Shown: positions 1 to 32,748 of the stretch, in pieces
How positions within the stretch are numbered: the first letter of the stretch is position 1
Layout of the letters: each line of letters starts with the position of its first letter
Origin: Bacteroidaceae bacterium
GTDB taxonomy: Bacteria > Bacteroidota > Bacteroidia > Bacteroidales > Bacteroidaceae
NCBI GenBank assembly: GCA_024398665.1
Contig: JAKSIS010000025.1
Coordinates: 1-32,748 of the forward strand
DNA: 32,748 nt
Direction: 5' to 3'
The notes under the pieces: generated by a model
Told to the model about the DNA's origin: nothing
Databases searched by the model: none
What the model saw: only the letters and a program-made list of their open reading frames with translations
Position numbers and translations under genes: made by a program

Positions 1-83
1 ACTATGAAAATATCTGTCCGTAATGGCAACTGGAAAAATTTGACAACAACCAATAACTGATAAAACTGACACCCCAACATAAT

Positions 84-236
84 ATGAAATCCTCAACAAT
101 CCCCCACCGCCACAGCATCGCAGCCGTCATGTTCTTTGTGATGCTGGCTTTGCCGCTCCAGGCACATGCTGACGTAGTGAAATACACCTATGACAGCAGC
201 GGGAACCGGACGGTCTGGAAGATTGTATGGCAGTGA
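84..236 (+). CDS. Small secreted peptide with one YD (RHS-like) motif
   Basis: This is a 50-residue reading frame. It starts with a basic N-terminus followed by a hydrophobic stretch (about residues 14-26) ending in QAHA, which looks like a signal peptide with cleavage after an A-x-A site. The mature part is only about 22 residues and contains KYTYDSSGNRT, a close match to the YD-repeat signature of RHS and wall-associated proteins, and then ends at TGA. Full YD proteins have many such repeats, so this is either a stand-alone small exported peptide or a remnant of a larger gene. No clear promoter box is visible upstream. It converges on the LRR gene that ends at 264. The function is unknown; the call rests on the signal peptide and motif only. 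Confidence 0.5.
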   Translation: MKSSTIPHRHSIAAVMFFVMLALPLQAHADVVKYTYDSSGNRTVWKIVWQ

Positions 237-263
237 GGGTCCGTATATGTCCTGAGTCAATTG

Positions 264-2096: not shown

Positions 2097-2117
2097 ATTA
2101 TATTCAAAATTACTTAC

Positions 2118-4559
2118 TCACTCCCCGAATCCCATCAGAGCGTCAAGGGCGCTGGCAGCCATGGAGCGGTTGTAGTTGTGGGTGGGGCGCGGCATTTCCA
2201 CGGGTTCAATTCTTATGCTGGAGGCGTTGCGTATGTCCTTCAGCTGCCAGCAGTCACTGAAAGCCCGTGAACCTATTGACGTAACGCTGGCGGGAATTGT
2301 AATGGACTTCAGGCCGGTGCAGCCCTCGAAAGCATAAGCGCCAATGGACTTCACGCCTTCAGGGATGGTGATCTGCTCAAGTGACGTGCAGCCCAGGAAC
2401 GCGCTCTGCGGAATCTCTTCAAGCCCTGCAGGAAGGTCAACTGACGTTACAGACGAACAGTAGCAGAAAGCCACGTTCCCAATGGTCTTCAATGTTGAAG
2501 GAAGTTCCAGATACCCGGCATTCGAACAGCCCCAGAATGCCCCCTCGCCTATTGACGTCACTCCCTCAGGTATCTGTATGCCATGAATGTCAATGGTGTG
2601 GAATGCACGCCTGCCAATTGACCTGACGCCGTCAGGAATGAAGGCCGATGCGCTACCTGCAACAAGTTCACCGCTGCTGCGGTCAACAATCACATTGCAG
2701 CCATCGGAATAATAACGTTCATTGCCGGAATCGACCGTCACGCTGTCAAGCTGACAGCCCATGAAGGCCGATGTTCCTATCTTCTTAACGCTGGCCGGAA
2801 TGCGCACATATGTAATGTTGTGGCATGCGTCAAATGCCGAATAGCCTATAAGCTCCAGCCTGTCACCGAATTCCACATGGTCAATCTGCGTATAGCTGAA
2901 TGCCATGCTTCCTATGTACCTGACTGACAGAGGCAGTTCAGCGGTCTCCAGACTGCGGCAGTTTGAAAATGCACTTCCACCTATGTATTCCAATGATTGC
3001 GGCAGAACGGCACTTACAAGCGGATTGTCACTGAAAGCATGGTCTCCAATCTTCCTTACGCCATCGGGGATTGTGACAGTCCGGAGCTGGGCCAATGAAA
3101 AAGCGCCGTCTCCAATGACAGTCAGCCCCTTGGGAAGCAGAATCGAATCAATGGCGGTGACACAGAAAGCGTTATTGCCCAATTTCTGCAAGCCGGCTGG
3201 AAGGCTTACTTCCCTGAGCATGCGGCAACGCTGGAATGCACTGTTGCCCAACTCCTTGAGTGATTCAGGCAAGTACAGTTCACTCAATTCGCCACAATCC
3301 AGGAACGCGCTGTCACCTACAGACACCAGTCCTTCTGGAAGGTGTACTGTCTTTATTGCACAGTTCTGGAAAGCGCCGAATCCTATACTTCTTACCCCGT
3401 CAGGAATGACTGAACTGCTGCAGCCCAGCAGCAATGCGCCATCGGATTTCCTTATCAGTACATTGCTGCCCTGAGGAGATTTGAACTTGCGGTTACGTGG
3501 ATCAACGCTGACCGATTCCAGTTTGCGTCCTTCATTGAATTCTTCAAGCGCAAATGCCTTCTCACCTATTTCACGCACACCTGCAGGAATGCGGACTGAT
3601 TTGAAACTGTTGCCGTAGAATGCCCTGTCACCTATCCTTTTCAGTCTTTCATTCAGTATGATTGAGTCACCCAATTTTATCCCGTTGAACGCGTCATTGC
3701 AAATTTCCCTTACATCTTCAGGAATTTCAGTCATGCCTTCAGTTCCTGCCACAAGGCGTCCTGTCTTCTTTTCCACAATGCAGTTCAGCCCCGGGGTCGC
3801 ATCATAAACCCTGTTGGCCGGATCAATCACAATGCAGCCTATGCTGCTGCCGGCCAGTGCTTTCTGTCCTATGCTCTCCACGCTGGAGGGAATGAACAGA
3901 GTGTCAGTCTTCACGCCACCTAAAGCACCGCCTGCAACAGTTCTGACTGATGCAGGTATTGCACTGGTGTTAAATGCCTTGAGCAGTTCACCTTTCTTCT
4001 TGTCTATAATTACTGCAGCGCCGTCAACGGAACTGTAGAGAGGATTGTCCGGTGAGATTACAATAGAACTGAGTTTGCTGCAGGAACTGATTGAACCGGC
4101 TGCAAGCCTTTCAAGCGTTGAAGGTATACGGATTGTGACTGCACCGGCTCCGCGTATGGCGCCGTCCTCGATTTCCGTCACGCCTTCAGGTATGTCTATG
4201 GAACTTACATCGAATGCCGAACCGAAGGCTGAATTTCCAATTTTCCTTACAGGATAAGTTTTCCCATTCAAGCTGACAGTCTTCGGGATGACAACGTCAC
4301 CTCTGTAATAACCTGCATTGATGGCCTTTATACTCATCAGATCACTTACACTCGGGGCAATGACGGCAATACTGTCTTCAATGTAGAAACACACATTCCC
4401 GTACTCGAATATCTCATTATCGTTCTGATAACCGAAACTGGGTTCACCGGCTGACTCGAAATCCGAATTCCAGTCTTCATCACAGTCCCATGTCACAACA
4501 ATCCTGCACGAACACAAAAGCGCTCCAGCCAGAGCAATCAATACATACCTGAATTTCAT
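2118..4559 (-). CDS. BspA-type leucine-rich repeat lipoprotein
   Basis: This encodes an 813-residue protein with a lipoprotein signal: hydrophobic residues 5-15 and lipobox LCSC with the acylated cysteine at position 18. A short acidic linker follows, and then about 650 residues of LRR_5 (BspA) repeats with IGxxAFxxC cores. Four repeats are extended by a similar cassette ending in patterns such as NVIVDRSSGELVAG or NCIVEKKTGRLVAG, which gives a modular look. The C-terminal tail of about 40 residues (from IRNASSIRIEP) is not repetitive. It is probably anchored in the outer membrane and displayed on the surface, in keeping with BspA proteins used for adhesion. It is the first gene of a two-gene LRR operon and has an excellent promoter (4578-4609) just upstream. 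Confidence 0.85.
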   Translation of the reverse strand: MKFRYVLIALAGALLCSCRIVVTWDCDEDWNSDFESAGEPSFGYQNDNEIFEYGNVCFYIEDSIAVIAPSVSDLMSIKAINAGYYRGDVVIPKTVSLNGKTYPVRKIGNSAFGSAFDVSSIDIPEGVTEIEDGAIRGAGAVTIRIPSTLERLAAGSISSCSKLSSIVISPDNPLYSSVDGAAVIIDKKKGELLKAFNTSAIPASVRTVAGGALGGVKTDTLFIPSSVESIGQKALAGSSIGCIVIDPANRVYDATPGLNCIVEKKTGRLVAGTEGMTEIPEDVREICNDAFNGIKLGDSIILNERLKRIGDRAFYGNSFKSVRIPAGVREIGEKAFALEEFNEGRKLESVSVDPRNRKFKSPQGSNVLIRKSDGALLLGCSSSVIPDGVRSIGFGAFQNCAIKTVHLPEGLVSVGDSAFLDCGELSELYLPESLKELGNSAFQRCRMLREVSLPAGLQKLGNNAFCVTAIDSILLPKGLTVIGDGAFSLAQLRTVTIPDGVRKIGDHAFSDNPLVSAVLPQSLEYIGGSAFSNCRSLETAELPLSVRYIGSMAFSYTQIDHVEFGDRLELIGYSAFDACHNITYVRIPASVKKIGTSAFMGCQLDSVTVDSGNERYYSDGCNVIVDRSSGELVAGSASAFIPDGVRSIGRRAFHTIDIHGIQIPEGVTSIGEGAFWGCSNAGYLELPSTLKTIGNVAFCYCSSVTSVDLPAGLEEIPQSAFLGCTSLEQITIPEGVKSIGAYAFEGCTGLKSITIPASVTSIGSRAFSDCWQLKDIRNASSIRIEPVEMPRPTHNYNRSMAASALDALMGFGE

Positions 4560-4577
4560 ATTGAGTTATTTTTTACG

Positions 4578-4609
4578 CAAAAATACACGCGGCATCACAT
4601 TTGTCCAAA
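4578..4609 (-). promoter_or_regulatory. Bacteroidota-type promoter for the LRR operon
   Basis: Read on the - strand, TTTG (4609-4606) is followed after 20 bp by TATTTTTG (4585-4578). This matches the Bacteroidota primary-sigma consensus TTTG-N19-21-TAnnTTTG in both boxes and in spacing. The predicted start of transcription is near 4572, leaving a leader of about 13 nt before the ATG at 4559. Confidence 0.75.
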
Positions 4610-4616
4610 GAAAACA

Positions 4617-4637
4617 CCGTTGCAATGCCGTTGCAAT
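4617..4637. repeat. Tandem 10-bp direct repeat CCGTTGCAAT, candidate operator
   Basis: CCGTTGCAAT occurs at 4617-4626 and again at 4628-4637, separated by one base, so the period is 11 bp, about one DNA turn. Each copy contains the palindrome TTGCAA. The pair lies between the divergent LRR and MgtC promoters, ending 13 bp before the TATCTTTG box of the latter and overlapping where its -33 element would be. That position would suit a regulator binding one face of the helix; the regulator is not known. Confidence 0.45.
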
Positions 4638-4650
4638 TTGTAGCGTTTGC

Positions 4651-4658
4651 TATCTTTG
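4651..4658 (+). promoter_or_regulatory. -7 promoter box upstream of the MgtC-type gene
   Basis: TATCTTTG matches the Bacteroidota -7 consensus TAnnTTTG and lies 22 nt before the ATG at 4681. The best upstream partner is GTTG at 4630-4633, with a short 17-bp spacer inside the direct repeat, so this promoter may need an activator or be repressed there. Confidence 0.6.
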
Positions 4659-4680
4659 CAGAAATACGCGCGTACATATT

Positions 4681-5121
4681 ATGATAACTGAGAACGAAGC
4701 GCTCATCAGAATAGGTGTCAGCCTGCTGCTGGGCGGCATAATTGGAATAGAGAGATACATTCACCGTCATCCGGCTGGCGTGAGGACATTCATGCTTATC
4801 TGTCTGGGTTCCACGCTGGCTACGCTGGCATCGATTTGGATTTGCCAGACCAACACCCACCTGATAAACGGTGACCCCGGGCGAATTGCGGCTCAGGTGC
4901 TTACCGGAGTGGGATTCATTGGCGCCGGACTTATCATAAAGAACAACAATGACATTTCAGGTCTGACCACTGCCACCGGCATATTCGTGACAGCAGCAGT
5001 GGGAGTGGCCGTGGGTGTGGGTATGATACGGACCGCCGTCGTGTCAACCGTGGCTGTGGTGCTCATACTGTTCTCGTCATTCCTGTTCCATAACAGCGAA
5101 AAGAAAAACAAGCAAAAATAA
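4681..5121 (+). CDS. MgtC/SapB family inner-membrane protein
   Basis: This encodes a 146-residue membrane protein with the MgtC N-domain layout: GGIIGIERYIHRHPAGVRT, then a glycine/serine helix, then the conserved block QVLTGVGFIGAGLII, and four to five membrane helices in all. It lacks the soluble C-terminal domain of Salmonella MgtC, as most short homologues do. The family is linked to Mg2+ limitation and membrane ATPase control in pathogens; its role here is not shown. The frame is open from 4561, but the ATG at 4681 is chosen because it lies just after the TATCTTTG promoter box and starts the conserved domain. The next gene begins 7 nt later, so the two are probably co-transcribed. Confidence 0.8.
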   Translation: MITENEALIRIGVSLLLGGIIGIERYIHRHPAGVRTFMLICLGSTLATLASIWICQTNTHLINGDPGRIAAQVLTGVGFIGAGLIIKNNNDISGLTTATGIFVTAAVGVAVGVGMIRTAVVSTVAVVLILFSSFLFHNSEKKNKQK

Positions 5122-5128
5122 CAGCATT

Positions 5129-8100
5129 ATGAAATTCAAACTATCATTCATCCTTGCAGCACTTCTGTCTGTGCTGCCGGCCAGGGCCCAGCAGCCTGAC
5201 CCCAACTTTTTCATCTACCTGTGTTTCGGACAGTCCAACATGGAGGCCGGCGCGCGTCCGGCTGAACAGGACCAGGACTTCAACGACCCGCGCTTCCAGT
5301 TCGTGGCCGCAGTTGACAACCCCCGCATGAACCGCAAGATGGGACAGTGGTACACCGCCGTACCGCCCATCTGCCGTCCCAGCAACAATATGGGCCCGGT
5401 TGACTTTTTCGGCCGCAAGATGATTGAAGTGCTGCCTCAGGAGTACAGGGTTGGCGTCATCAACGTGTCAGTGGCCGGTGCCAAGCTGGAGCTGTGGGAC
5501 AAGGACGCATGTGAAGAGTACCTTGCCATGGAGGCCGCTGACCCCAGCCGCTCCTGGCTTGTGAACATGGCCAAGGAATATGACATGAGCCCCTACCAGC
5601 GCCTGCTTGACATGGCAAAGATTGCCCAGAAGAGCGGTGTCATAAAGGGCATGCTTGTACACCAGGGCGAATCGAACCCCAACGACTCACTGTGGTGCGG
5701 CCGTCTCAAGAAGATCCATGACGATCTGTGCCATGACCTTGGAATAAATCCCGATGACGTTCCCCTGCTGGCCGGCGAACTGAAACAGGCCGAAGAGGGC
5801 GGCGTATGCGCAGGATTCAACCGGGAAGTGCTGGCCCACCTGCCTGAAGTCATGCCCAACGGCTACGTAATCTCATCAATAGGCTGCGAAAGCACCGGTG
5901 ACCAGTTCCATTTCAGCACTGAAGGCATGCGCCTGATGGGTTACCGCATGGCTGACAAGATGCTTGAACTGCAGGGATTCAAGGAGCCCCAGAACCGCAC
6001 CGTCAACATCAACCTGAACCTGAAGAAGAAAAAGAAGAACGGTCTTGGAATAGATATCAGCCCCACCCTGGCCGGCATATTCTTTGAAGACATAAACCAG
6101 TCTCTTGACGGCGGCATATGCGCCCAGCTTATCCAGAACCACTCATTCCAGGCCTACAACGTGCCTGACGCCCCCAACGCCAAGGAATTCTCCAAGTCCG
6201 ATACCGTGTTCTTCGGCTGGACTGTAATAAGGAAGGATGGTGCCGCAGGCCAGGCCCATGCAGTCAGTGACCACCCGCTGGTCAGTAATCTGAAACGCTA
6301 CTATGACTTCGATCCCAATGACAGATATGACGATGAACTGCGTTACGCCCAGTACAGCGTACGTTTTGACATCGAGAACCCGGGCGACGGTTTCGGCATT
6401 GCCGCAAACGGCTACGGCATAGCTCCCTACGGAAACGAGCGTCAGGGCAACTACTATTCCAACAACACACAGACCGCATCGATCCCCGTCCAGCAGAACG
6501 TCAGTTATGACCTGACAATGTACCTGCAGGGCCAGCAGTATCCGGGCAGTATCAGAGTACGCCTTGAGGATGCAAATGGCAATCCCAATTCGAACGAAAT
6601 CACAATAAGCGGTCTCAAGAACAGTTGGCAGAAATATACCGGACAGCTCAAGGCCCAGAAGTCAACTGACAGCCGCCTGGCCATCATGGCCGATGCCGCC
6701 GGAACATTCTACCTGGATTACGTTACCCTGCTGCCTGAAGCATCACAGCTGTGGAATGAAGGCAAGAGCGGTCCTTTCCGCAAGGACCTCATGCAGGCGC
6801 TGTCTGACCTTCACCCCACATTCATGCGCTTCCCCGGAGGCTGTGCAAGTGAGGGAACCAACTATTTCGGCCAGCCCTTCTGGAAGAACTCCATCGGACC
6901 TGAAGAGGAACGCATAGGATTCCGCAACCACTGGGGATACTGGACTTCACAGTACGTAGGCTTCTATGAGTACCTGCTCATGGCCGAATCTCTGGGCGCC
7001 ACCCCGCTGCCAGTCCTGAACAACGGCGTGACCTGCCAGTTTGCAGGACATCAGTACATAGCTCCGCTTGAGACCGATGCTGACCGCAAGCGTTTCCATG
7101 ACATATTCGTCAAGGACGCTCTTGACTTCATTGAATTCTGCAACGGATCCACTGACACCGAATGGGGAAAGAAACGTGCTGAAATGGGCCATCCCGAACC
7201 CTTCAACCTGAAGTATCTTGGCATAGGAAATGAAAACAAGGGTCCCGAATTCTGGGAGCGTTTCGACATCATATACAATGAGGTGACGGCAAAATACCCG
7301 GACATCATAATCGTGTCCACTGCCGGTTCAGCCGCTGACGGCCCGGAATTCAACGCCAACATGCACGAAATCGACACCAAGTACCAGAACACCGTGGTCG
7401 ATGAACACTACTACCGCAACAACCAGTGGTTCTACACCAACGGCAGCCGTTACAATGCTGACAAGGTGCGCGGAGCCGACGGCCTGACCTATGACCGCCA
7501 GCGCCCCACCCGCGTGTTCGTGGGCGAATTCGCCAACAACAGCAGCAACAACGACTATGCCAGCGCAATGGCCGAGGCCGCATACTGGATCAGTCTTGAG
7601 CGCAATTCCGATATGGTCGTGATGGCCGCCTACGCCCCGCTGCTGTGCAAGAAGGGATTCAACAAGTGGAATTCAAACCTCATCTGGTTCGACAACCGCG
7701 GAATGTGGCGCACCTGCAACTACTACTATCAGCAGCTGTTCTCAAAGGCCGGCAACAAGGCATTTGAAATGAGCGGATTCATGAATGGAACTGAGGCCGA
7801 TGCCACCATCTACTCATCGCCCACAGTCAATACGGAAACAGGCGAGATATTCATCAAGTTCGTCAATTCCGAAGCTCAGAACAAGTACATCACTTTCAAC
7901 ATGGGCAAGGCCCTGAAGAAACAGAAATACACGGCAACAGTTGAATTCGTCACATCACCTGACACCAAGATAAAGAACCAGGGTGAGCAGAACAGCTACT
8001 CCAGCGCACAGCCCGCAGCACCTGCAGGCGGACGCGGCGGATTTGGCGGCATGGGCGGATTTGGCGGCGGCAGCCGTTTCAACTATACCGAAAAGGTTGT

Positions 8101-8197
8101 ACCACACACATCGGATCTTGGTGAAATAAAACAGGAATTCACCATGACCATGCCTGAAAATTCAATAGGAATCATTCACCTGACACCGGTCAAGTGA
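5129..8197 (+). CDS. Secreted sialate-O-acetylesterase-like / GH51 alpha-L-arabinofuranosidase fusion
   Basis: This 1022-residue protein has a signal peptide (cleavage near ARAQ, residue 21) and two catalytic modules. Residues of about 25-285 are an SGNH/SASA-type carbohydrate esterase: GQSNM with Ser36, HQGESN at 178-183, and DQFH with Asp258 and His261. Residues of about 305-1020 are a GH51 alpha-L-arabinofuranosidase: an N-terminal GIFFEDIN block, MRFPGG near 566, GNE with probable acid/base Glu702, and FVGE with probable nucleophile Glu800. A glycine-rich insert (about 966-981) interrupts the C-terminal beta domain. The two modules could deacetylate and release L-arabinofuranose from plant arabinan or arabinoxylan. 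A run of five lysines (299-303) lies at the junction. The next gene follows after 16 nt. Catalytic assignments follow family knowledge; substrate is inferred. Confidence 0.85.
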   Translation: MKFKLSFILAALLSVLPARAQQPDPNFFIYLCFGQSNMEAGARPAEQDQDFNDPRFQFVAAVDNPRMNRKMGQWYTAVPPICRPSNNMGPVDFFGRKMIEVLPQEYRVGVINVSVAGAKLELWDKDACEEYLAMEAADPSRSWLVNMAKEYDMSPYQRLLDMAKIAQKSGVIKGMLVHQGESNPNDSLWCGRLKKIHDDLCHDLGINPDDVPLLAGELKQAEEGGVCAGFNREVLAHLPEVMPNGYVISSIGCESTGDQFHFSTEGMRLMGYRMADKMLELQGFKEPQNRTVNINLNLKKKKKNGLGIDISPTLAGIFFEDINQSLDGGICAQLIQNHSFQAYNVPDAPNAKEFSKSDTVFFGWTVIRKDGAAGQAHAVSDHPLVSNLKRYYDFDPNDRYDDELRYAQYSVRFDIENPGDGFGIAANGYGIAPYGNERQGNYYSNNTQTASIPVQQNVSYDLTMYLQGQQYPGSIRVRLEDANGNPNSNEITISGLKNSWQKYTGQLKAQKSTDSRLAIMADAAGTFYLDYVTLLPEASQLWNEGKSGPFRKDLMQALSDLHPTFMRFPGGCASEGTNYFGQPFWKNSIGPEEERIGFRNHWGYWTSQYVGFYEYLLMAESLGATPLPVLNNGVTCQFAGHQYIAPLETDADRKRFHDIFVKDALDFIEFCNGSTDTEWGKKRAEMGHPEPFNLKYLGIGNENKGPEFWERFDIIYNEVTAKYPDIIIVSTAGSAADGPEFNANMHEIDTKYQNTVVDEHYYRNNQWFYTNGSRYNADKVRGADGLTYDRQRPTRVFVGEFANNSSNNDYASAMAEAAYWISLERNSDMVVMAAYAPLLCKKGFNKWNSNLIWFDNRGMWRTCNYYYQQLFSKAGNKAFEMSGFMNGTEADATIYSSPTVNTETGEIFIKFVNSEAQNKYITFNMGKALKKQKYTATVEFVTSPDTKIKNQGEQNSYSSAQPAAPAGGRGGFGGMGGFGGGSRFNYTEKVVPHTSDLGEIKQEFTMTMPENSIGIIHLTPVK

Positions 8198-8213: not shown

Positions 8214-8822
8214 ATGGACAAATTAAGTTATTCATTGGGCCTGAACATAGGCCAGCAGCTTAAGCAGATGGGGCTTAAGGACGAATTCGTTGCAAGTGAC
8301 TTTGCAGCGGCAGTAAATGACATGATAAAGGGCAGCAGGCCTCAGGTAAGCATAAATGAGGCCCAGCAGATACTGAACGACTTCTTTGCCGGTCTGGAGA
8401 AACGCCAGCAGGCTGAAGCCGCCAAGGCCGGAAAGGCCGCCCGTGAAGCAGGTGAAAAGTTCCTGAAGGAGAATGCCGGCAAGGCCGGTGTGACGGTTAC
8501 CGCCAGCGGTCTTCAGTACACGGTTCTCAAGGAAGGCACAGGCCGCAGGCCTACTGCTGACAATACCGTACGCTGCCACTATGAGGGAACGCTCATTGAC
8601 GGCACTGTTTTCGATTCGTCATACCGCCGCGGCGAACCCGCCGAATTCGGTCTGCGCCAGGTCATTGCCGGCTGGACTGAGGGCGTACAGCTTATGCAGG
8701 AAGGTGCAAAGTACCGCTTCTTCATACCCTACAACCTTGCCTACGGCGAGCGTGGTGCCGGCAGCGACATTCCGCCCTACGCCGCCCTTATCTTTGACGT
8801 CGAACTTATCAAAGTAATCTGA
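8214..8822 (+). CDS. FKBP-type peptidyl-prolyl cis-trans isomerase
   Basis: This encodes a 202-residue protein with an N-terminal helical dimerisation region (about 1-95, beginning MDKLSYSLGLNIG, typical of Mip/FkpA-type FKBPs) and a C-terminal FKBP domain (about 98-202). The domain shows the active-site segments GTVFDSS, VIAGWTEGVQLM and AYGERGAGSDIPPYAALIFDVEL, so the isomerase looks intact. No signal peptide is visible, so a cytoplasmic location is most likely, although related proteins are often exported. It follows the GH51 fusion by 16 nt on the same strand and may be its co-transcribed chaperone, but the link may be only positional. The gene stops eight bases before the palindrome cluster at 8830. 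Confidence 0.92.
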   Translation: MDKLSYSLGLNIGQQLKQMGLKDEFVASDFAAAVNDMIKGSRPQVSINEAQQILNDFFAGLEKRQQAEAAKAGKAAREAGEKFLKENAGKAGVTVTASGLQYTVLKEGTGRRPTADNTVRCHYEGTLIDGTVFDSSYRRGEPAEFGLRQVIAGWTEGVQLMQEGAKYRFFIPYNLAYGERGAGSDIPPYAALIFDVELIKVI

Positions 8823-8829
8823 TTTCCAA

Positions 8830-8884
8830 TGGGGACAGTCCCTGTCTAATGGGGACAGTCCCCGTTAGACAGGGACTGTCCCCA
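8830..8884. repeat. Palindrome cluster 1 (three GGGGACAGTCCC units), 20-bp inverted repeat
   Basis: Three copies of GGGGACAGTCCC lie at about 20-bp period: 8831-8842 and 8851-8862 forward, and 8872-8883 inverted. Bases 8830-8849 and 8865-8884 are perfect 20-bp inverted repeats around a 15-base loop that is itself the near-palindrome GGGGAC-A-GTCCCC. The ATG of the next gene starts at the very next base (8885). The forward copies also carry ATG codons: 8829-8849 is a six-codon frame whose TAA overlaps an in-frame upstream ATG at 8849. It resembles a REP/BIME-type interspersed palindrome; a second cluster lies at 11508. Confidence 0.8.
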
Positions 8885-11509
8885 ATGAACAAACTGCTGT
8901 TACCCGCCCTGCTGTTGCTCTTGCCGCTTGCTGATGCCGGCGCGCAGCAGCATTCCAGAACGGACCGCAAGTCCGATTCTGTCACTGAATCTGCCCCTAC
9001 CGCTGTGAGTCCGGCTGACAGTCTTGTCATGTGGGCAGGCAACATACATCAGTTCAACAGCCTGTTTCCTCAGGAGAAGGTATATCTGGAGTTTGACAAC
9101 AGCGCTTATTTCCAGGGTGAGAACATCTGGTTCAAGGCATTCGTCACACACGCCAGCACACTTCAGCGCGCTCCCAGCAAGGTGCTGTATGTGGATCTCA
9201 TTTCACCTGAAGGCATGGTGCTGGAGACCCGCAAGCTGAAAGTGGTAGCCGGTCAGGCTGACGGTGTCTTCCCGCTCATTGAAGCATCGACCGGTCAGGC
9301 ACGCGCCCAGCGCGGCATGATGAACTACCCCAGCGGATTCTATGAAATCAGGGCCTATACCCAGAACCAGCTGGATTTCACATCTGAAGCCCTTTTCTCA
9401 AGAATCATCCCCGTATACACCAAACCCAAACATGACGGTGAATTCGAAGAGTCAAAGGTTGTAGAAATAAAGAAGCCGGAACTGGGAATAAAACGTGAGG
9501 AGGCCGATGTCCAGAAACGTGACATAGAAGTTGCCTTCTTCCCCGAAGGCGGTGACATTGTCCAGGGGCTGCCGTGCAACGTCGCTTTCAAAGCCACAGG
9601 ACCGAACGGGCTTGGCCTGGACGGACAGCTCATACTGTCTGACGGTCATACTGTGGAAACTGTGCATGACGGCATGGGGGCTGTCAGGTTCACTTCCTTG
9701 CAGCGGTCCGGAGAATCGGCCCAGTTCATAAGTGCCGGCGGTGACAGACGCCGCGTGACACTTCCGCGCGCAGTCAGGTCAGGCTATTCCATGATTGTGA
9801 CCCAGCGCACGGACTCCACCCTGAAGGCCAGGGCCTACCGCACGCCTGACCGCATGGAAAAGGAAGTGGGCGTTGTGGTGACATGCCGCGGCGAAGTGGT
9901 GCATTTCTCACGGATTGAGGCAGCTGACTCCATGGACATAAGCCTTGATGCCACAAACTGGCCGCTTGGCGTATGCCGTCTCACACTCTACAACCGGGAC
10001 GGCATGGTCCTGTCGTCACGCAGCCTGTTCCACAACAACAGCAGTTTCACCGCTCCGACAATAGAAATATCGACAGACAGTCTGCTGGGCATACCGTTCA
10101 TGCCTGAAATAATCAACCTGCACCTGAGCGACCGCGACGGCAATCCCATACGCGACCGCTTCTGCCTGTCCGTACGTGACATCACGGACTACGGTTGCGG
10201 CAACACGGACAACATACTTTCCAACCTGCTGCTTTCATCGGACCTGAAGGGATACATTCAGGACCCGGCATGGTATATGGAGTCCGATGATACGCTGCAC
10301 CACCGTGCCATGGACCTGCTCACCCTGGTGCAGGGTTGGGAACGTTACGAATGGAAGACCATGACAGGACAGGACGGCTGGAGCGAGCAGCACCGTGTCG
10401 AGGACAGCCTTACCATGAACGGCTGGATAATGTCATACATGGGCTATGACAAGCTGCCTGACGTAACAGTCATGGCCAGCCTCATACCCAAGGACAAGAC
10501 AAAGTTTGAGGAATTCCAGTATACGACTGACACGACCGGCTATTTCGGATTTGACCTGGCTGACTTTGAAGGCAACGCCACATTCAACATCTCTCTCATG
10601 GAGTGGACAAAAAAAGGCAAGCCCAAGTACCCCACCAAGACAAGGATACGTTTTGAAAGGGCCGATGTCCCCCAGTCACGCTCCATTGACATACTTGAGA
10701 AGGACATGGCAGGGCTCAACGCAAGGCGCTATGACCCGAATGATGAAGAGCCCGAGGAGGAGGATCCGTACAGGAACATTGTGAACATGGACATGGGGGT
10801 GATACTCGATGACGTTGACATTGAGGCCCGCCGCCAGTTCGTTGACTATGACACCTTTCATGCATGGAACGCCCACAAGGATGCCGAGGCCGAGCTTGAC
10901 AAGGGCGAATACACATCGGACCTTTACGGCTGGATGCTGGAAAAGGGCTACATATTCCACGAACGACTGTATTACTATGTCCACAATTCCCAGAAGTATG
11001 TGATGGACCGCAAGCCGTTTGACATACCGGAATCAATTGACATGGCCGATGTCATAAGCGTCAACATCTATGATGAGGTCATGACCCCCAGCCACCTGTA
11101 CAAACTCATTCCGCTTGAAGTCGAATACCACCGCAAGCACATGGACATTGGCTGGTTCGTGGATATGGACAATGACTGGCAGAAACTGTACCGTCTCATT
11201 GATGTGCTGGTAAAGGAAGAGCATCAGCTTGAGCCGGGCAAGGACCTGCGTAACCTGAGCCGCAGAAAGACTACCGTCACCGGCTATTCTGAAACAGTAC
11301 AGTTCTACGCACCGACCTACCCGAACGGTCCTGTCCCCGGTGAAAAGGATTTCCACAGAACCCTGTACTGGAACCCCAACGTCATCACTGACAAGGACGG
11401 AAATGCAAGAGTGGAATTCTACAACAACGGATTCAGCCGCCACTTCACGATAAGCGGCGCCGGCATCACCGCATCCGGCACCCCCTACTCACTTAACATC
11501 GAATTTTAG
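8885..11509 (+). CDS. Secreted MG2-domain (macroglobulin-like) surface protein
   Basis: This encodes 874 residues with a signal peptide ending at DAGAQ (about 21). Residues of about 62-155 resemble the MG2 domain of bacterial alpha-2-macroglobulin-like proteins (VYLEFDNSAYFQGENIWFKAFV). Further beta-sandwich segments follow, then a short plug-like region (MGVILDDVDIEARR), and the C-terminus has the family's closing pattern YWNPNVITDKDGNARVEFYNNG. Bacteroidota carry many such proteins in the outer envelope; none has a firmly known job that I can assign here. The start at 8885 is chosen because it begins the signal peptide; an in-frame ATG at 8849 would add 12 residues encoded by the repeat. 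The TAG stop shares two bases with the second palindrome cluster. Base composition resembles that of the neighbours. Confidence 0.75.
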   Translation: MNKLLLPALLLLLPLADAGAQQHSRTDRKSDSVTESAPTAVSPADSLVMWAGNIHQFNSLFPQEKVYLEFDNSAYFQGENIWFKAFVTHASTLQRAPSKVLYVDLISPEGMVLETRKLKVVAGQADGVFPLIEASTGQARAQRGMMNYPSGFYEIRAYTQNQLDFTSEALFSRIIPVYTKPKHDGEFEESKVVEIKKPELGIKREEADVQKRDIEVAFFPEGGDIVQGLPCNVAFKATGPNGLGLDGQLILSDGHTVETVHDGMGAVRFTSLQRSGESAQFISAGGDRRRVTLPRAVRSGYSMIVTQRTDSTLKARAYRTPDRMEKEVGVVVTCRGEVVHFSRIEAADSMDISLDATNWPLGVCRLTLYNRDGMVLSSRSLFHNNSSFTAPTIEISTDSLLGIPFMPEIINLHLSDRDGNPIRDRFCLSVRDITDYGCGNTDNILSNLLLSSDLKGYIQDPAWYMESDDTLHHRAMDLLTLVQGWERYEWKTMTGQDGWSEQHRVEDSLTMNGWIMSYMGYDKLPDVTVMASLIPKDKTKFEEFQYTTDTTGYFGFDLADFEGNATFNISLMEWTKKGKPKYPTKTRIRFERADVPQSRSIDILEKDMAGLNARRYDPNDEEPEEEDPYRNIVNMDMGVILDDVDIEARRQFVDYDTFHAWNAHKDAEAELDKGEYTSDLYGWMLEKGYIFHERLYYYVHNSQKYVMDRKPFDIPESIDMADVISVNIYDEVMTPSHLYKLIPLEVEYHRKHMDIGWFVDMDNDWQKLYRLIDVLVKEEHQLEPGKDLRNLSRRKTTVTGYSETVQFYAPTYPNGPVPGEKDFHRTLYWNPNVITDKDGNARVEFYNNGFSRHFTISGAGITASGTPYSLNIEF

Positions 11510-15850: not shown

Positions 15851-18226
15851 ATGAAAAGAATCATTTTATCAGCAGTAATTGCCGCTGTCGCAATGACTGC
15901 CGGAGCTCAGGACAAGCTCTACACCAACACGTTCAACTTGAGTCAGGTGGAACTTACTGACGGTCCGTTCAAGCATGCCTTGGACCTTAATGTGAAAGTT
16001 CTTCTTGAATATGACACCGACCGCCTGCTGGCACCTTTCCTCAAGGAAGCCGGACTGCCCAAGAAGGCCGAACTTTTCCCCAACTGGGAAGGTCTGGACG
16101 GACATGTGGGCGGACACTACGTATCGGCCCTGGCCATACACTATGCCGCAACAGGCAACAAGGACTGCTATGACAGGCTGGTCTACATGATTGACGAACT
16201 GGAAAAGTGCCAGAACGCCAACGGTGACGGATATCTGGGCGGTGTGCCAAACAGCAAGCTGCTGTGGGGCAATCTCAAGAAGGGAGATTTCGGGCTGTTC
16301 CGCGGTGCCTGGGTTCCATGGTACAACGTTCATAAGATGTACGCGGGCCTGCGCGACGCATGGCAGTATGCCGGAATAGAGAAGGCAAAGACCATGTTCC
16401 TGAAGTTCTGCGACTGGGGGCTGGAAGAGTTCAAGGACCTGACCGACGCCCAGATGGAACAGATGACAGGCACCGAATTCGGCGGAATGAACGAAATATT
16501 CGCCGATGCGTTCCAGATGACCGGCGAAAGAAAGTACATTGAGGCTGCAAAGCGTTTCCGCCACAAGGACATCTTTGAGAACATGGCAGACGGCAATGAC
16601 AATCTGGACGGCAAGCATGCCAACACACAGGTTCCCAAGGCCGTAGGTTACGCACGCGTGGCAGCTCTCGACAATGACGCACGCGCACGCCAGGCTGCAG
16701 AATTCTTCTGGGACCGTGTGGCCAACCACCGTTCAGTGGTCATAGGAGGCAACAGCCGCAGCGAGCATTTCCCTTCTGCATCGGACTACAAGAGTTACGT
16801 TGAACACCGTGAGGGACCTGAATCCTGCAACACCAACAACATGCTCAAGCTGACAGAATTCCTGTTCGCCATTGACCCCAGGGCTGAATACGCAGACTTC
16901 TATGAGAAGGCCATGTACAACCATATTCTGTCAACACAGCACCCCGAACACGGCGGTTACGTGTATTTCACTTCAATGCGTCCGGGTCACTACCGCGTCT
17001 ATTCGGCCGTAAACCAGGGCATGTGGTGCTGCGTGGGCACAGGTATGGAGAACCACGGCAAGTACGGCGAATTCATCTACACCCATGACGGAGCCAGTGA
17101 ACTGCGCGTGAACCTGTTCATAGCATCAAAGCTGACATGGACTGAAAATCAGGCCGTAATCACTCAGGAGACACAGTTCCCCTATGCCGAATCTTCAAAA
17201 CTGACATTCAAGATGAAGAAGGCAAAGACCTTCCGTCTTATGGTGCGCTGTCCGGAATGGACGACTGACGGCTACAGCATAAAGGTCAACGGCAAGGAAT
17301 ATGCCGCCGGCGCTGAAAAGCAGTCATATGTAGCCATTGAGCGCAAGTGGAAGAACGGTGACGTGGTTGAGATTTCACTGCCCATGAAGACCACCGTCGA
17401 AGCGCTTGACAACCAGCCTTCATACCTGGCCGTAAAGAAGGGCCCCATTGTGCTGGCAGCACGCACAGGTACAAATGACCTGGCAGGTCTGGTGGCCGAT
17501 GACGGCCGCTGGAGCCACATAGCACACGGTTCGCTGACTCCGATTGACGAAACGCCCATCATGATAGGTTCACGCCAGCAGATTGAGCGCAAGCTTGAGA
17601 ACATGCAGCCCGTTGAAGGCAAGCCGCTCCACTTCACCGTTCCCGGCCTGTTTGACAGCAAGCGCTACGCAGACCTTGAACTGGAACCGTTCTACAGCCT
17701 GCATGACAGCCGCTATGCAATATATTTCCTGTCACTTTCAAATGATGACTATGATGCCATGCTGAACAGAATGCGCCAGGCCGAAGAGGCAATGCTGCAG
17801 CTTGACCGCCGCACGGTCGATGCCATAGTCCCCGGCGAACAGCAGCCCGAGGCTGACCACAAGTTCCAGAACGACGGTTCCAATTCAGACCGCCAGGAGA
17901 ACAAGACATACCGTACGGTACGCCGCGGCGGCAGTTTCAGCTATGACCTCTACACTGACGGTAATGAGAAACTGAATCTCTGCATAGGCTACTGGGGCAA
18001 TGAGAACGGCCAGTTCGGCCGTCAGCGCGGACTTGACATTCTCATTGACGGACAGCTGTTCAAGGCTGAAACAGATTTTGCCAACAACGGCCGTGAGGAG
18101 ATTGTACGCAAGGAATACGCCGTTCCTGAAGAACTCATCAAAGGCAAGGAGAAGATACGCATCACCTTCCGTCCCACTGAAGGCGCTGTCTGCCCGCGCA
18201 TCTTTGACATACGCTTCCTGAAGTGA
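15851..18226 (+). CDS. GH127 beta-L-arabinofuranosidase (DUF1680)
   Basis: This 791-residue enzyme has a signal peptide (MKRIILSAVIAAVAMTAGAQ). The (alpha/alpha)6-barrel spans about residues 25-420 and carries the family's metal and nucleophile set: Glu324 and Cys326 in GPESC, and Cys393-Cys394 in MWCCVGTGMENHGKYG. These correspond to the zinc-bound E-x-C and CC of Bifidobacterium HypBA1, in which the first of the paired cysteines is the catalytic nucleophile. Beta-rich domains follow, and about 120 residues at the C-terminus form an additional domain. The activity removes beta-L-arabinofuranose, for example from hydroxyproline-linked arabinans. It is the second gene of a pair with the lipoprotein esterase, and the hairpin at 18242-18288 ends it. 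The related GH146 family has the same cysteines, so linkage preference is not certain. Confidence 0.88.
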   Translation: MKRIILSAVIAAVAMTAGAQDKLYTNTFNLSQVELTDGPFKHALDLNVKVLLEYDTDRLLAPFLKEAGLPKKAELFPNWEGLDGHVGGHYVSALAIHYAATGNKDCYDRLVYMIDELEKCQNANGDGYLGGVPNSKLLWGNLKKGDFGLFRGAWVPWYNVHKMYAGLRDAWQYAGIEKAKTMFLKFCDWGLEEFKDLTDAQMEQMTGTEFGGMNEIFADAFQMTGERKYIEAAKRFRHKDIFENMADGNDNLDGKHANTQVPKAVGYARVAALDNDARARQAAEFFWDRVANHRSVVIGGNSRSEHFPSASDYKSYVEHREGPESCNTNNMLKLTEFLFAIDPRAEYADFYEKAMYNHILSTQHPEHGGYVYFTSMRPGHYRVYSAVNQGMWCCVGTGMENHGKYGEFIYTHDGASELRVNLFIASKLTWTENQAVITQETQFPYAESSKLTFKMKKAKTFRLMVRCPEWTTDGYSIKVNGKEYAAGAEKQSYVAIERKWKNGDVVEISLPMKTTVEALDNQPSYLAVKKGPIVLAARTGTNDLAGLVADDGRWSHIAHGSLTPIDETPIMIGSRQQIERKLENMQPVEGKPLHFTVPGLFDSKRYADLELEPFYSLHDSRYAIYFLSLSNDDYDAMLNRMRQAEEAMLQLDRRTVDAIVPGEQQPEADHKFQNDGSNSDRQENKTYRTVRRGGSFSYDLYTDGNEKLNLCIGYWGNENGQFGRQRGLDILIDGQLFKAETDFANNGREEIVRKEYAVPEELIKGKEKIRITFRPTEGAVCPRIFDIRFLK

Positions 18227-29690: not shown

Positions 29691-30758
29691 ATGAGAAAAT
29701 CAGTTCTATTTGCAGTTGTGGCATCACTGGCATTCGCCATGCCCGCTACTGCACAGCAGGAAAGAACAGTCGAAGACGGCGGCACAGGCCCCTTCAAAGC
29801 AGTCATGACACAGGATACAAGTCTGTCCACACACACTGTCATACGTCCCGCTGACATGAGCAAGTTCGGCAAGGACAACCTGATTCCAGTTCTTCTTTGG
29901 GGTAACGGCGGTTGTGCAAAATCTTGCAGCGGTCATGTAAATTTCCTTAGCGAAGTCGCTTCACAGGGCTTCTTCATCGTTGCCATAGGTCCTATGCCTG
30001 CAGCAGGTGCAGGTCCTCAGGCCGGCCAGACCGGCGGATTCCCCGGTGGCGGTATGCCCCAGGGCGGATTCGGCGGATTCCCCGGTGGCGGTATGCCTCA
30101 GGGCGGATTCGGCGGATTCCCCGGCGGCGGTATGCCCCAGGGTGGATTCGGCGGTTTCCCCGGCGGCGGACAGGGTGGTCCCAGTGTTGCACCTGAAGCT
30201 CCCCAGATGGGAGGCGGCATGTCCATGGGTGACCCCGCAGACATGAAGATTGCCCTGGAATGGGTCATAGCACAGAACGCAGACAAGAACAGCCCCTACT
30301 ACGGCAAGCTTGACATTGACAACATTGGTGCTGCAGGCATGTCATGCGGCGGTCTGGAGGCTCTGCACATGTCAGGTGACGCACGCATCAAGACCATCAT
30401 GGTAATGAACAGCGGCTACATTGGCAATGGAGGAGCTGACAAGGAAAGTCTCAACTCAATGAAGACCAAGTCTGTAATCTGGATACTGGGCGGTTCAACG
30501 GACATTGCATATGAGAACGGCACTGATGACTTCAAGCAGATCAGGAACCAGATGCCGGCATTCTGGTCAAGTCTTGACGGTGTAGGTCACGGCGGCACAT
30601 ACATGCAGAACCACGGCGGTGACTACGCCAAGGTTGCAGGCGCATGGCTCAAGTGGCAGCTCAAGGGTGACAAGGAAGCCGGAACAATGTTCACAGGCGC
30701 AGAACCGGGCATTTCAAAGATGGCCGGCTGGTCATTTGACCGCAAGAACATCAAGTAA
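29691..30758 (+). CDS. Secreted alpha/beta hydrolase with glycine-rich tandem-repeat insert
   Basis: This 355-residue protein has a signal peptide (to about residue 22, ATAQ). The fold is an alpha/beta hydrolase: an oxyanion-region strand VLLWGNGGC (67-75), the nucleophile elbow GMSCG with Ser218, an acid in GGSTDIAY (Asp271), and a histidine in GVGHGG (His300). The layout resembles chlorophyllase- or cutinase-like esterases, but the substrate is unknown. Between the strand ending IGPMP (about 103) and the helix before the nucleophile lies an insert of about 75 residues, including 3.75 copies of the 13-residue unit GGFPGGGMPQGGF (115-163). It has its own terminator at 30780-30812, so it is probably monocistronic, divergent from the OPT operon. 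Confidence 0.8.
   Translation: MRKSVLFAVVASLAFAMPATAQQERTVEDGGTGPFKAVMTQDTSLSTHTVIRPADMSKFGKDNLIPVLLWGNGGCAKSCSGHVNFLSEVASQGFFIVAIGPMPAAGAGPQAGQTGGFPGGGMPQGGFGGFPGGGMPQGGFGGFPGGGMPQGGFGGFPGGGQGGPSVAPEAPQMGGGMSMGDPADMKIALEWVIAQNADKNSPYYGKLDIDNIGAAGMSCGGLEALHMSGDARIKTIMVMNSGYIGNGGADKESLNSMKTKSVIWILGGSTDIAYENGTDDFKQIRNQMPAFWSSLDGVGHGGTYMQNHGGDYAKVAGAWLKWQLKGDKEAGTMFTGAEPGISKMAGWSFDRKNIK
30033..30179 (+). repeat. 39-bp in-frame minisatellite inside the hydrolase gene
   Basis: Three full units of 39 bp (30033-30071, 30072-30110, 30111-30149) are followed by a partial fourth unit. Units differ at only a few silent third positions (for example CCC or CCT before CAG). Each unit codes for GGFPGGGMPQGGF. 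The multiple of three keeps the frame, so copy-number change would alter loop length only. Confidence 0.9.
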
Positions 30759-30779: not shown

Positions 30780-30812
30780 GGCGGGCCTCACGACAGTGGG
30801 GCCCGCCTTTTT
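30780..30812 (+). terminator. Rho-independent terminator of the hydrolase gene
   Basis: GGCGGGCCTCAC (30780-30791) pairs with GTGGGGCCCGCC (30796-30807) around the loop GACA, with one G-U pair, and is followed by five T residues (30808-30812). It lies 22 nt after the stop codon. Confidence 0.88.
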
Positions 30813-30855: not shown

Positions 30856-30863
30856 TACATTTG
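30856..30863 (+). promoter_or_regulatory. -7 promoter box for the MATE-kinase fusion gene
   Basis: TACATTTG matches TAnnTTTG and lies 33 nt before the ATG at 30897, downstream of the hydrolase terminator, so the fusion gene probably has its own promoter. No good TTTG is present 19-21 bp upstream. Confidence 0.5.
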
Positions 30864-30896: not shown

Positions 30897-32654
30897 ATGG
30901 TCAACCGACGCAATTCGTACATCATTGGCAAAGCATTGAAGAATTTTCTTCTCGCTTCTGTACTCACAATGGCCGTCCAGCAGCTGAACGTTACTGTTGA
31001 CGGCATTATTGTTGGCAATTTCGTCAATCCTGACGCCTTTGCTGCAACCAGTCTGTTCATGCCGCTGTCACTCGCCATATCTTCATTCGGGGCATTGTTC
31101 GGCATTGGGGCGACAATCATCGCCGCCAGACACATAGGAGAACTTGACCGGGAAAAAACTGACAGGACCCTGTCCACCGCCGTACTCGCAGTTCTGGTTT
31201 TCGGCATCCTGCTGGGTGCGGTCTCCCTGCTGACCAGAGATTCAATATCATCATTGGTATGCCACGAGGAAAGACTGGAAGGGCATTTCACATCATACAT
31301 GTCCATTATGATGGGCGGTTCGGTCATAACCATGTTCTCCACGCTTACCAACCACATGATCAGCATTGACGGTCACCCCGAATATGTGATAGCAGCCGTA
31401 TCGGCATCGGCTGTCACCAACCTTATCCTGGACATTGTATTCGTAGCTTTTGCCGGATGGGGTATTGCAGGTTCCGCATGGGCTACGGTAATTTCCACAC
31501 TCTGCGGTATCATCTACCTGTGGAAATACATCATGTCGTCCCGTTGTCTGTTCAGTATCAGGCCATTCCGGTATTTTTCGTTCAGCAATCTGAAAAACAA
31601 CATGAAACATGGCGCTTCCATTGCGATAAGCAATCTGCTGCTGATGGCACTGTATGCCACCCAGAACAACATAGTTCAGGACAGACAGGGCGCCGACGGC
31701 ATGTTTGCATTCGCCATCTGCCTGAACCTGCTTACCTTGGGCATGTCCATGACTACCGGCGTTGTTGCACCACTCATGTCGATTGGCGGATTCCTTAACG
31801 GACAGCATGACTACGTCGGACTTAAAATGCTTGTTCATCGCGGCATTGCACTGCTTGAAATCTGCATGTTCACCATTGTTGCGGTTATACAGCTGTTTCC
31901 AGGTTTCATTTCAACATTGTTCGGTGCCGATACTGTAGAACTGCAGCTCTATTCAAGCATGGTTCTCCGTACATTCTCATGGTTTCTCCCCTGTGTGATG
32001 TCCGTTCTTCTTCTCAGCAATGTCTATCAGCTTCTTGGAAAGCTGATTCTGGTACCTGTCATAGCTCTGATGACCTTCCTTGTGCTGATATCAAGTCTGC
32101 TGCTGTGGTCGTATCTGGCAGGAGACGAAAGAATCTGGTACGCCTTTCCCCAGACCGGTCTGACACTTTTATCAGCAGTACTGGTAATTTCACAGATTAT
32201 ACGGCGCAAGGAACCGGACCGTGAATGGCTGACCCTTGTGCCCCATGCGGAGAGCGGAAGAAAAATTGACATTTCAGTGAAAGCCGATACTAAAGCCATG
32301 GCCGGCTCAATGGCTGAAATATCAGATTTCCTGTTGTCGTCAGGTCTTGAAAAGAAGTTGTGCAACGACATCAATCTGTGCGTTGAAGAGGTTGTGGTCA
32401 ATGTTGTGGAACATTCCGGACACAAAAGGGATAATCACTATTTTGATGTGAGCATAAACCTGCAGAAGCATTGTGTGACAGCTTCCATAAAGGACGATGG
32501 AAAGCCGTTCGACCCCGTAAGGTGCAGCGAAAGCCAGAAGGGAATGGGGTTGAAAATTCTGCACGCCCTGTGTCCCGATATCGAGTACCGGTACATGTAT
32601 GGACTGAACATGATTTTCATGCAGTGGAATATATCTGAAGGTGTGCCGGATTGA
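30897..32654 (+). CDS. MATE-family transporter fused to an RsbW-type ATP-binding (anti-sigma kinase-like) domain
   Basis: This 585-residue protein has two parts. Residues of about 1-440 are a MATE/MatE multidrug-exporter core with about 12 membrane helices in two halves (first half starts with QQLNVTVDGIIVGNFVNPDAFAA; second half near 240-250 with GASIAISNLL). Residues of about 455-580 are a HATPase_c_2 domain: the N-box CVEEVVVNVVEHS with Glu498 and Asn502, the G1 box DDGKPFDP (533-540), and the G2 box KGMGLKI (548-554). These are the ATP-binding residues of RsbW/SpoIIAB anti-sigma serine kinases. The family's usual role is to phosphorylate a STAS-domain partner; no such gene, sigma factor or PP2C phosphatase is visible in the window. 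Transport partner and signal are unknown. A short stalk (RRKEPDREW) joins the parts. Confidence 0.85.
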   Translation: MVNRRNSYIIGKALKNFLLASVLTMAVQQLNVTVDGIIVGNFVNPDAFAATSLFMPLSLAISSFGALFGIGATIIAARHIGELDREKTDRTLSTAVLAVLVFGILLGAVSLLTRDSISSLVCHEERLEGHFTSYMSIMMGGSVITMFSTLTNHMISIDGHPEYVIAAVSASAVTNLILDIVFVAFAGWGIAGSAWATVISTLCGIIYLWKYIMSSRCLFSIRPFRYFSFSNLKNNMKHGASIAISNLLLMALYATQNNIVQDRQGADGMFAFAICLNLLTLGMSMTTGVVAPLMSIGGFLNGQHDYVGLKMLVHRGIALLEICMFTIVAVIQLFPGFISTLFGADTVELQLYSSMVLRTFSWFLPCVMSVLLLSNVYQLLGKLILVPVIALMTFLVLISSLLLWSYLAGDERIWYAFPQTGLTLLSAVLVISQIIRRKEPDREWLTLVPHAESGRKIDISVKADTKAMAGSMAEISDFLLSSGLEKKLCNDINLCVEEVVVNVVEHSGHKRDNHYFDVSINLQKHCVTASIKDDGKPFDPVRCSESQKGMGLKILHALCPDIEYRYMYGLNMIFMQWNISEGVPD

Positions 32655-32662
32655 CCGGCAAG

Positions 32663-32690
32663 AAAAAAGGGTCCACCGTGAAGTGAACCC
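32663..32690 (-). terminator. Terminator of the tRNA-Gly gene
   Basis: On the - strand, GGGTTCAC (32690-32683) pairs with GTGGACCC (32676-32669) around a 6-base loop and is followed by six T residues (32668-32663). It lies 5 nt after the 3' end of the tRNA. Confidence 0.75.
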
Positions 32691-32695
32691 TCTTG

Positions 32696-32748
<53 letters not shown>

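Follow-up and report, generated by a model that had tools for sequence, protein, structure and literature searches.

A MATE exporter fused to an RsbW/SpoIIAB-type domain in gut Bacteroidales and Clostridia: a candidate partner switch on export

A single open frame of the Bacteroidaceae DNA analysed here - the window, 32,748 nucleotides in all - joins a MATE exporter core to a HATPase_c_2 domain of the RsbW/SpoIIAB type, and the same architecture recurs in genomes of two phyla, in many of them with genes for STAS proteins, SpoIIE-type phosphatases or nonribosomal peptide synthetases (NRPS) close by. We propose tentatively, leaning slightly to doubt, that the exporter-borne domain may be a kinase that binds and phosphorylates a STAS protein and in this way gates release of NRPS products, which would amount to a post-translational secretion switch in gut Bacteroidales and Clostridia.

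The fusion gene and its two domains

The features of the gene and of the DNA just upstream are as follows.

30780..30812 (+): GC-rich inverted repeat with T tail, probable terminator after the upstream hydrolase gene (by eye)
30856..30863 (+): TACATTTG, possible Bacteroidota -7 element (consensus match)
30897..32654 (+): MATE-HATPase_c_2 fusion gene, 585 aa plus stop
30897..32216 (+): MATE exporter core (MOP superfamily, DinF/PfMATE-like), residues ~1-440 (Pfam, phmmer to solved MATEs, fold match)
32244..32651 (+): HATPase_c_2 domain (RsbW/SpoIIAB-type), residues 450-585 (Pfam and profile match)
32385..32414 (+): N-box region, residues 497-506, with E497, E498, N502 and H506 (alignments)
32493..32516 (+): G1 box, residues 533-540, DDGKPFDP (alignments)
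32538..32558 (+): G2 box, residues 548-554, KGMGLKI, preceded by a short flexible lid (alignments)

An earlier note on this DNA had read a MATE core and a HATPase_c_2 domain in one frame, and so it is: in the 585-aa protein MatE scores 70 bits over two stretches (Pfam cut-off 24.9) and HATPase_c_2 (PF13581) 52.4 bits (cut-off 27.4). By fold match the MATE fold (PF01554) spans the whole core, and a hydropathy count gives 10 strong segments. When the protein is compared by phmmer with solved MATEs, D35, N175 and D179 align with D41, N180 and D184 of PfMATE, which we take to be its ion-coupling residues, and the columns of these positions are near-invariant. Judged from such conserved positions, ion-coupled substrate export is a putative activity of the window's protein.

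The N, G1 and G2 boxes, which the same note had called intact, indeed keep E498, N502, D533, G535 and G551 in our alignments. Profiles match the domain to RsbW (6m36) and SpoIIAB (1tid/1th8/1til); they are needed for these structure matches, since a phmmer search of solved structures with the domain sequence by itself gave 0 matches at E 10. Scores lie below the NCBIfam equivalog cut-offs for RsbW/SpoIIAB (18.7 vs 145 bits, 18.9 vs 135 bits). A structure model of the full protein predicts alpha/beta order for the domain, with a mean pLDDT of 51 at residues 541-550 in the lid before the G2 box. The fold-search rows cover residues 4-453 only, and that those shown include no HATPase protein is not evidence against a Bergerat fold.

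With a probable terminator upstream of it, the fusion gene is probably a separate transcription unit, although a terminator scan confined to loops of at most 8 did not list the inverted repeat. TACATTTG was compared with what we assume to be the Bacteroidota -7 consensus, a pattern no commoner in the window than chance (16 found vs 12.7 expected). The product of the upstream gene (29691-30758, +) is a secreted, hydrolase-like protein in which a GGMPQGGFGGFPGG-type insert is repeated in tandem, and its match to the PETase family is sub-threshold only; homology of this GGF-repeat hydrolase to the one beside L051 was considered and rejected (best E 0.45). Further away lie two adjoining BspA-type leucine-rich-repeat proteins (264-4559, -) as well as arabinofuranosidase/acetylesterase and GH127 beta-arabinofuranosidase genes (5129-8197, + and 15851-18226, +), perhaps an arabinan-degrading neighbourhood. 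The contig ends 94 bases downstream of the fusion gene and cuts what by eye looks like part of an antisense tRNA gene, tRNA-Gly-like (32690-32748, -), at which place ARAGORN listed no tRNA.

Spread, origin and gene neighbours

Among the matches listed, at least 11 of 37 genomes in the window's genus carry the fusion at whole length, and in the family at least 28 of 399 have one (9 of 30 genera, one fusion being split); the searches of the family, the order and the class used a profile of the last 220 residues. A draw from the order gave the fusion in 4 of 295 genomes, 3 of them outside the family, while the class of a Faecalibacterium genome has it in 24 of 391 when open frames from 570 aa upwards are counted. 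Rumen Prevotella and horse-gut Bacteroidales MAGs are among the named carriers; the viral contigs searched yielded no relative. Pfam places both domains above cut-off in L058, L060, L075, L172, L176, L177 and L178 and, from the Faecalibacterium class, in L249, L239 and L242. Custom family profiles brought into the fusion set L039, L041, L079, L097 and L104, where Pfam scores the C-terminal domain below cut-off, and L046, L053, L182 and L185, where Pfam leaves it unscored.

That the fusion is genuine, as the earlier note had read it, follows from this recurrence. We found nothing in support of an assembly or frameshift artefact, and as many independent genomes, from two phyla, share this frame and both parts are under purifying selection (see below), we regard an artefact as scarcely conceivable. 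In one locus, L181, the MATE-HATPase gene does run in two frames (222 and 345 aa; 3224-4904, +) next to STAS and NRPS genes, a split that is either real or an assembly error.

In a MATE tree of 96 representatives, L058 and L172 join the window's protein with full support, and three changes of fusion label are needed. This fits one gain and two losses of the HATPase domain, a putative history that assumes a root among plain MATEs in a tree made by a quick method and weakly rooted. The two domain-free groups nested in the fusion clan include L190/L018 and L085-L087. Here the domain has changed place: in L190, L086 and L087 Pfam puts HATPase_c_2 on the neighbouring SpoIIE and finds the MATE without it, and in L085 a custom profile likewise puts it on SpoIIE. 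This check covers L190, L085, L086 and L087; L017 and L019 also belong to the second nested group.

Gene neighbours were annotated over 8 kb with profiles built from Pfam-confirmed members, and rows were collapsed at 70% identity into fusion and plain-MATE clusters, with the degenerate L180 outside both sets. STAS or SpoIIE genes lie near 26 of 60 fusion clusters vs 4 of 33 plain-MATE clusters (Fisher p=0.0024), or 2 of 30 plain clusters once nested swap operons are removed, and partner-switch or NRPS genes near 35 of 60 vs 7 of 33 (p=0.0009). NRPS genes alone are not enriched (14/60 vs 5/33, p=0.43), so the plain-MATE control does not show an NRPS link; three of the five NRPS-linked plain clusters are nested swap operons, without which the control is 2/30 (p=0.08). 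Counted by row, partner-switch or NRPS neighbours occur in 22 of 63 members of the Bacteroidales set, which includes L081, labelled proteobacterium, and in 25 of 31 of the Clostridia set; 47 of the 94 fusion rows, the window included, have none within 8 kb, some flanks being short.

Many members adjoin NRPS genes, and those of the closest relatives, L058 and L172, start 22 and 16 bp downstream. STAS genes adjoin the MATE-kinase gene on the same strand in L176 (27 bp), L177 (102 bp), L249 (20 bp) and L250 (54 bp) and overlap it in L178, again on the same strand, where a 2472-aa NRPS and a phosphopantetheinyl transferase follow. The order in L177 is SpoIIE, STAS, MATE-HATPase, a condensation-like gene and an AMP-binding gene; its SpoIIE is without a HATPase, and our profiles recognised no other within 8 kb here and no second one within 8 kb in L178. 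L249 assembles NRPS, MATE-HATPase, STAS and SpoIIE-HATPase inside 11.3 kb. The serine motif is kept in 14 of 14 STAS proteins listed. Three relatives with eroded ATP sites (L062, L074, L075) keep the SpoIIE neighbour and have no nearby STAS.

Some loci show further arrangements. In L180 an operon-like run (1-7303, -) holds SpoIIE-HATPase, STAS, AMP-binding, a MATE with degenerate C-terminus (567 aa) and a condensation-domain gene. L248 encodes STAS, an APH-like kinase and HATPase_c_2 in one 529-aa protein (8452-10041, +) adjoining the MATE-HATPase gene, and in L261 a GH3-family protein (6077-7681, +) sits between the STAS and MATE-HATPase genes. Four MAGs share a cassette of a Cys-rich FliB-like protein, a dCache-HAMP-SpoIIE phosphatase gene and a MATE fusion with eroded HATPase:

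L062 5020-9685, L074 2680-7344, L075 7125-11773, L079 737-4552: FliB-like/SpoIIE/MATE-fusion cassette

The L043/L075 member of the FliB-like protein reaches 78.6 bits with NF038110, under the cut-off of 85, and the SpoIIE gene of the L079 cassette is cut by the contig end.

The window's own copy stands alone at the end of its contig, with no STAS or phosphatase gene in view. The window is contig C18 of a 2.24 Mb genome (84% complete), and within it we found neither STAS nor SpoIIE; the only pair is on contig C13, where the genome's one SpoIIE gene, one single-domain STAS (100 aa) and one free HATPase_c_2 lie together. The genome also encodes a long-frame STAS protein (564 aa), and no condensation domain was found in its 84% complete sequence at E 0.001. 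The suggestion in the earlier note that partners would be elsewhere suits the window and does not carry over to the many relatives that have them in the same operon; the NRPS genes that often neighbour relatives also lay beyond what that note could see.

The ATP site, selection and co-occurring partners

Of the ATP-site residues, E498 is present in 90 of the 94 fusions, N502 in 63, D533 in 78, G535 in 72 and a G2 glycine in 64. E498, N502 and D533 stand together in 61, and at least one of them is missing in 33. Not all members, then, are likely to have an active kinase, and the loss of ATP-binding residues in homologues, which the earlier note had named as refuting its reading, is seen in part. 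Partner-switch or NRPS neighbours accompany 40 of 61 intact rows vs 7 of 33 eroded ones, counts that are not independent of phylogeny; with independent pairs the direction is right (3.6 to 0.2) in an underpowered comparison (median p 0.25-0.5). In many eroded relatives a YxYxxGxN-like C-terminal stretch persists.

The HATPase domain is under purifying selection, eroded copies too. Its dN/dS is 0.04-0.32 in 20 of 21 pairs (one pair is without a value) and 0.07-0.24 in the five eroded pairs. In 17 of the 20 pairs with a value it exceeds that of the MATE part, which changes more slowly.

Co-occurrence was searched in 54 fusion genomes. Each of the 34 with an unbroken intact fusion has a single-domain STAS together with strong SpoIIE matches. 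Another 19 are without an unbroken intact fusion, and 13 of these, plus one split-gene genome, still have a single-domain STAS; as STAS persists in most such genomes, its link to the fusion is one-way. Group g21, with 6 fusion genomes, all eroded, has no single-domain STAS and no strong SpoIIE, its STAS proteins being long-frame only (498-597 aa) or absent. Being the loss of one lineage, this counts about once, and genomes of other eroded members have both single-domain STAS and SpoIIE.

A putative switch on export, its alternatives and known systems

Since switch parts are found again and again beside the exporter, with the kinase domain borne by either the MATE or the phosphatase, the simplest account is that exporter activity is the output, and that the HATPase domain is a kinase or docking partner of STAS. 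Whether the partner switch acts directly on the exporter, rather than on a sigma factor, is a point on which our own judgement is evenly balanced. The transporter tied to a phospho-switch that the earlier note had envisaged gains from the gene context in two phyla, the domain swap between MATE and SpoIIE and the co-occurrence across genomes, and it loses from the eroded ATP sites in a third of relatives; kinase activity itself is putative, being read from motifs.

From these patterns we infer a model of ATP binding, STAS phosphorylation, docking, direction of control and cargo. The protein would be a secondary-active MATE exporter with a cytoplasmic C-terminus that serves as kinase and docking partner of a partner switch. 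In the presence of ligand, a membrane sensor phosphatase (dCache-HAMP-SpoIIE) would dephosphorylate the single-domain STAS, which may then dock on the exporter's HATPase_c_2 and change its transport state; the ATP-charged domain would in turn phosphorylate the STAS serine, so that STAS is released and the exporter reset. In many relatives the linked NRPS probably makes the cargo. With no local partners in view, the window's exporter, its kinase motifs intact, would use the STAS/SpoIIE pair on contig C13.

The same gene context would also suit an exporter that acts as a sensor, in which cargo load or the ion gradient alters the HATPase, which in turn binds or phosphorylates STAS, the switch thereby signalling the state of export to a different output, for instance the expression of NRPS genes. 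Regulation of NRPS expression by such switch genes has been proposed for a methanogen (Leahy et al. 2010, PMC2812497), and a second HATPase, on SpoIIE or alone, could hold another target in L081, L175, L249 and L237-L239. Against this stand L177 and L178, with no second recognised HATPase within 8 kb (sigma genes lie outside our profiles), and to our minds the sensor is a possible if rather unlikely reading. We are more doubtful that the domain is mainly a docking module, a pseudokinase through which the exporter is brought to STAS/SpoIIE or the NRPS machinery and which can dispense with ATP. The 33 of 94 eroded sites, the constraint seen nonetheless in five eroded pairs and the C-terminal stretch that survives in many eroded relatives speak for such a module, yet E498, N502 and D533 are all present in 61 rows, the window among them, and erosion goes with missing context (7/33 eroded vs 40/61 intact), a phylogeny-dependent count.

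Finally, an ATP-binding fold family attached to a transporter may bring to mind a domain that energises transport directly, making this an ATP-using MATE. The residues aligned with the PfMATE ion-coupling positions are conserved, however, plain MATEs without the domain are nested in the same clan, and we know of no Bergerat-type kinase domain that serves as a transport motor; we hold this to be very improbable.

The bacterial phospho-switch is best known for holding sigma factors. Should our preferred reading, a switch on the exporter itself, be true, the switch would also govern transporters directly, it would explain the timing with which gut anaerobes release uncharacterised nonribosomal peptides, and the combination of MATE-kinase, STAS and SpoIIE would serve in genomes as a marker by which such clusters, and the signals belonging to them, could be found. 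Because intact, eroded and domain-swapped members all occur naturally, the mechanism can be tested.

Anti-sigma kinases of the RsbW/SpoIIAB type operate by partner switching with RsbV/SpoIIAA and RsbU/SpoIIE. The fusion domain resembles them in its HATPase_c_2 profile match, its N, G1 and G2 boxes and the STAS and SpoIIE neighbours of relatives, but it differs in being attached to an exporter, in its short lid, in falling far under the NCBIfam cut-offs and in having no known sigma partner (sigma genes were outside the profile searches). DinF-type MATEs (PfMATE, DinF-BH) differ in that the matched solved chains, of 440-492 aa, have no kinase domain, and so does ClbM, a natural-product MATE exporter of 431 aa. 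A cluster of similar make-up is described from Methanobrevibacter ruminantium M1, where an NRPS has on its flanks two serine phosphatases together with an anti-sigma antagonist and a MatE protein, for which environment sensing, control of NRPS expression and export were proposed; in a third cluster there is, in addition, an anti-sigma kinase encoded by a gene of its own (Leahy et al. 2010, PMC2812497). The same gene types come together there as in the fusion loci, whereas a kinase domain on MatE goes unmentioned in the part of the paper used here, the comparison being by description only (PMC2812497). A similar methanogen cluster has thus been known in outline since 2010, and in the literature searched, with subscription journals mostly outside its scope, we found no report of a MATE-HATPase_c_2 fusion itself. 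SulP/SLC26 transporters with a STAS domain (PMC8256260) offer a further parallel: there too a transporter is fused to one component of a partner switch, but it is the STAS side rather than the kinase side, and the transporter is an unrelated one.
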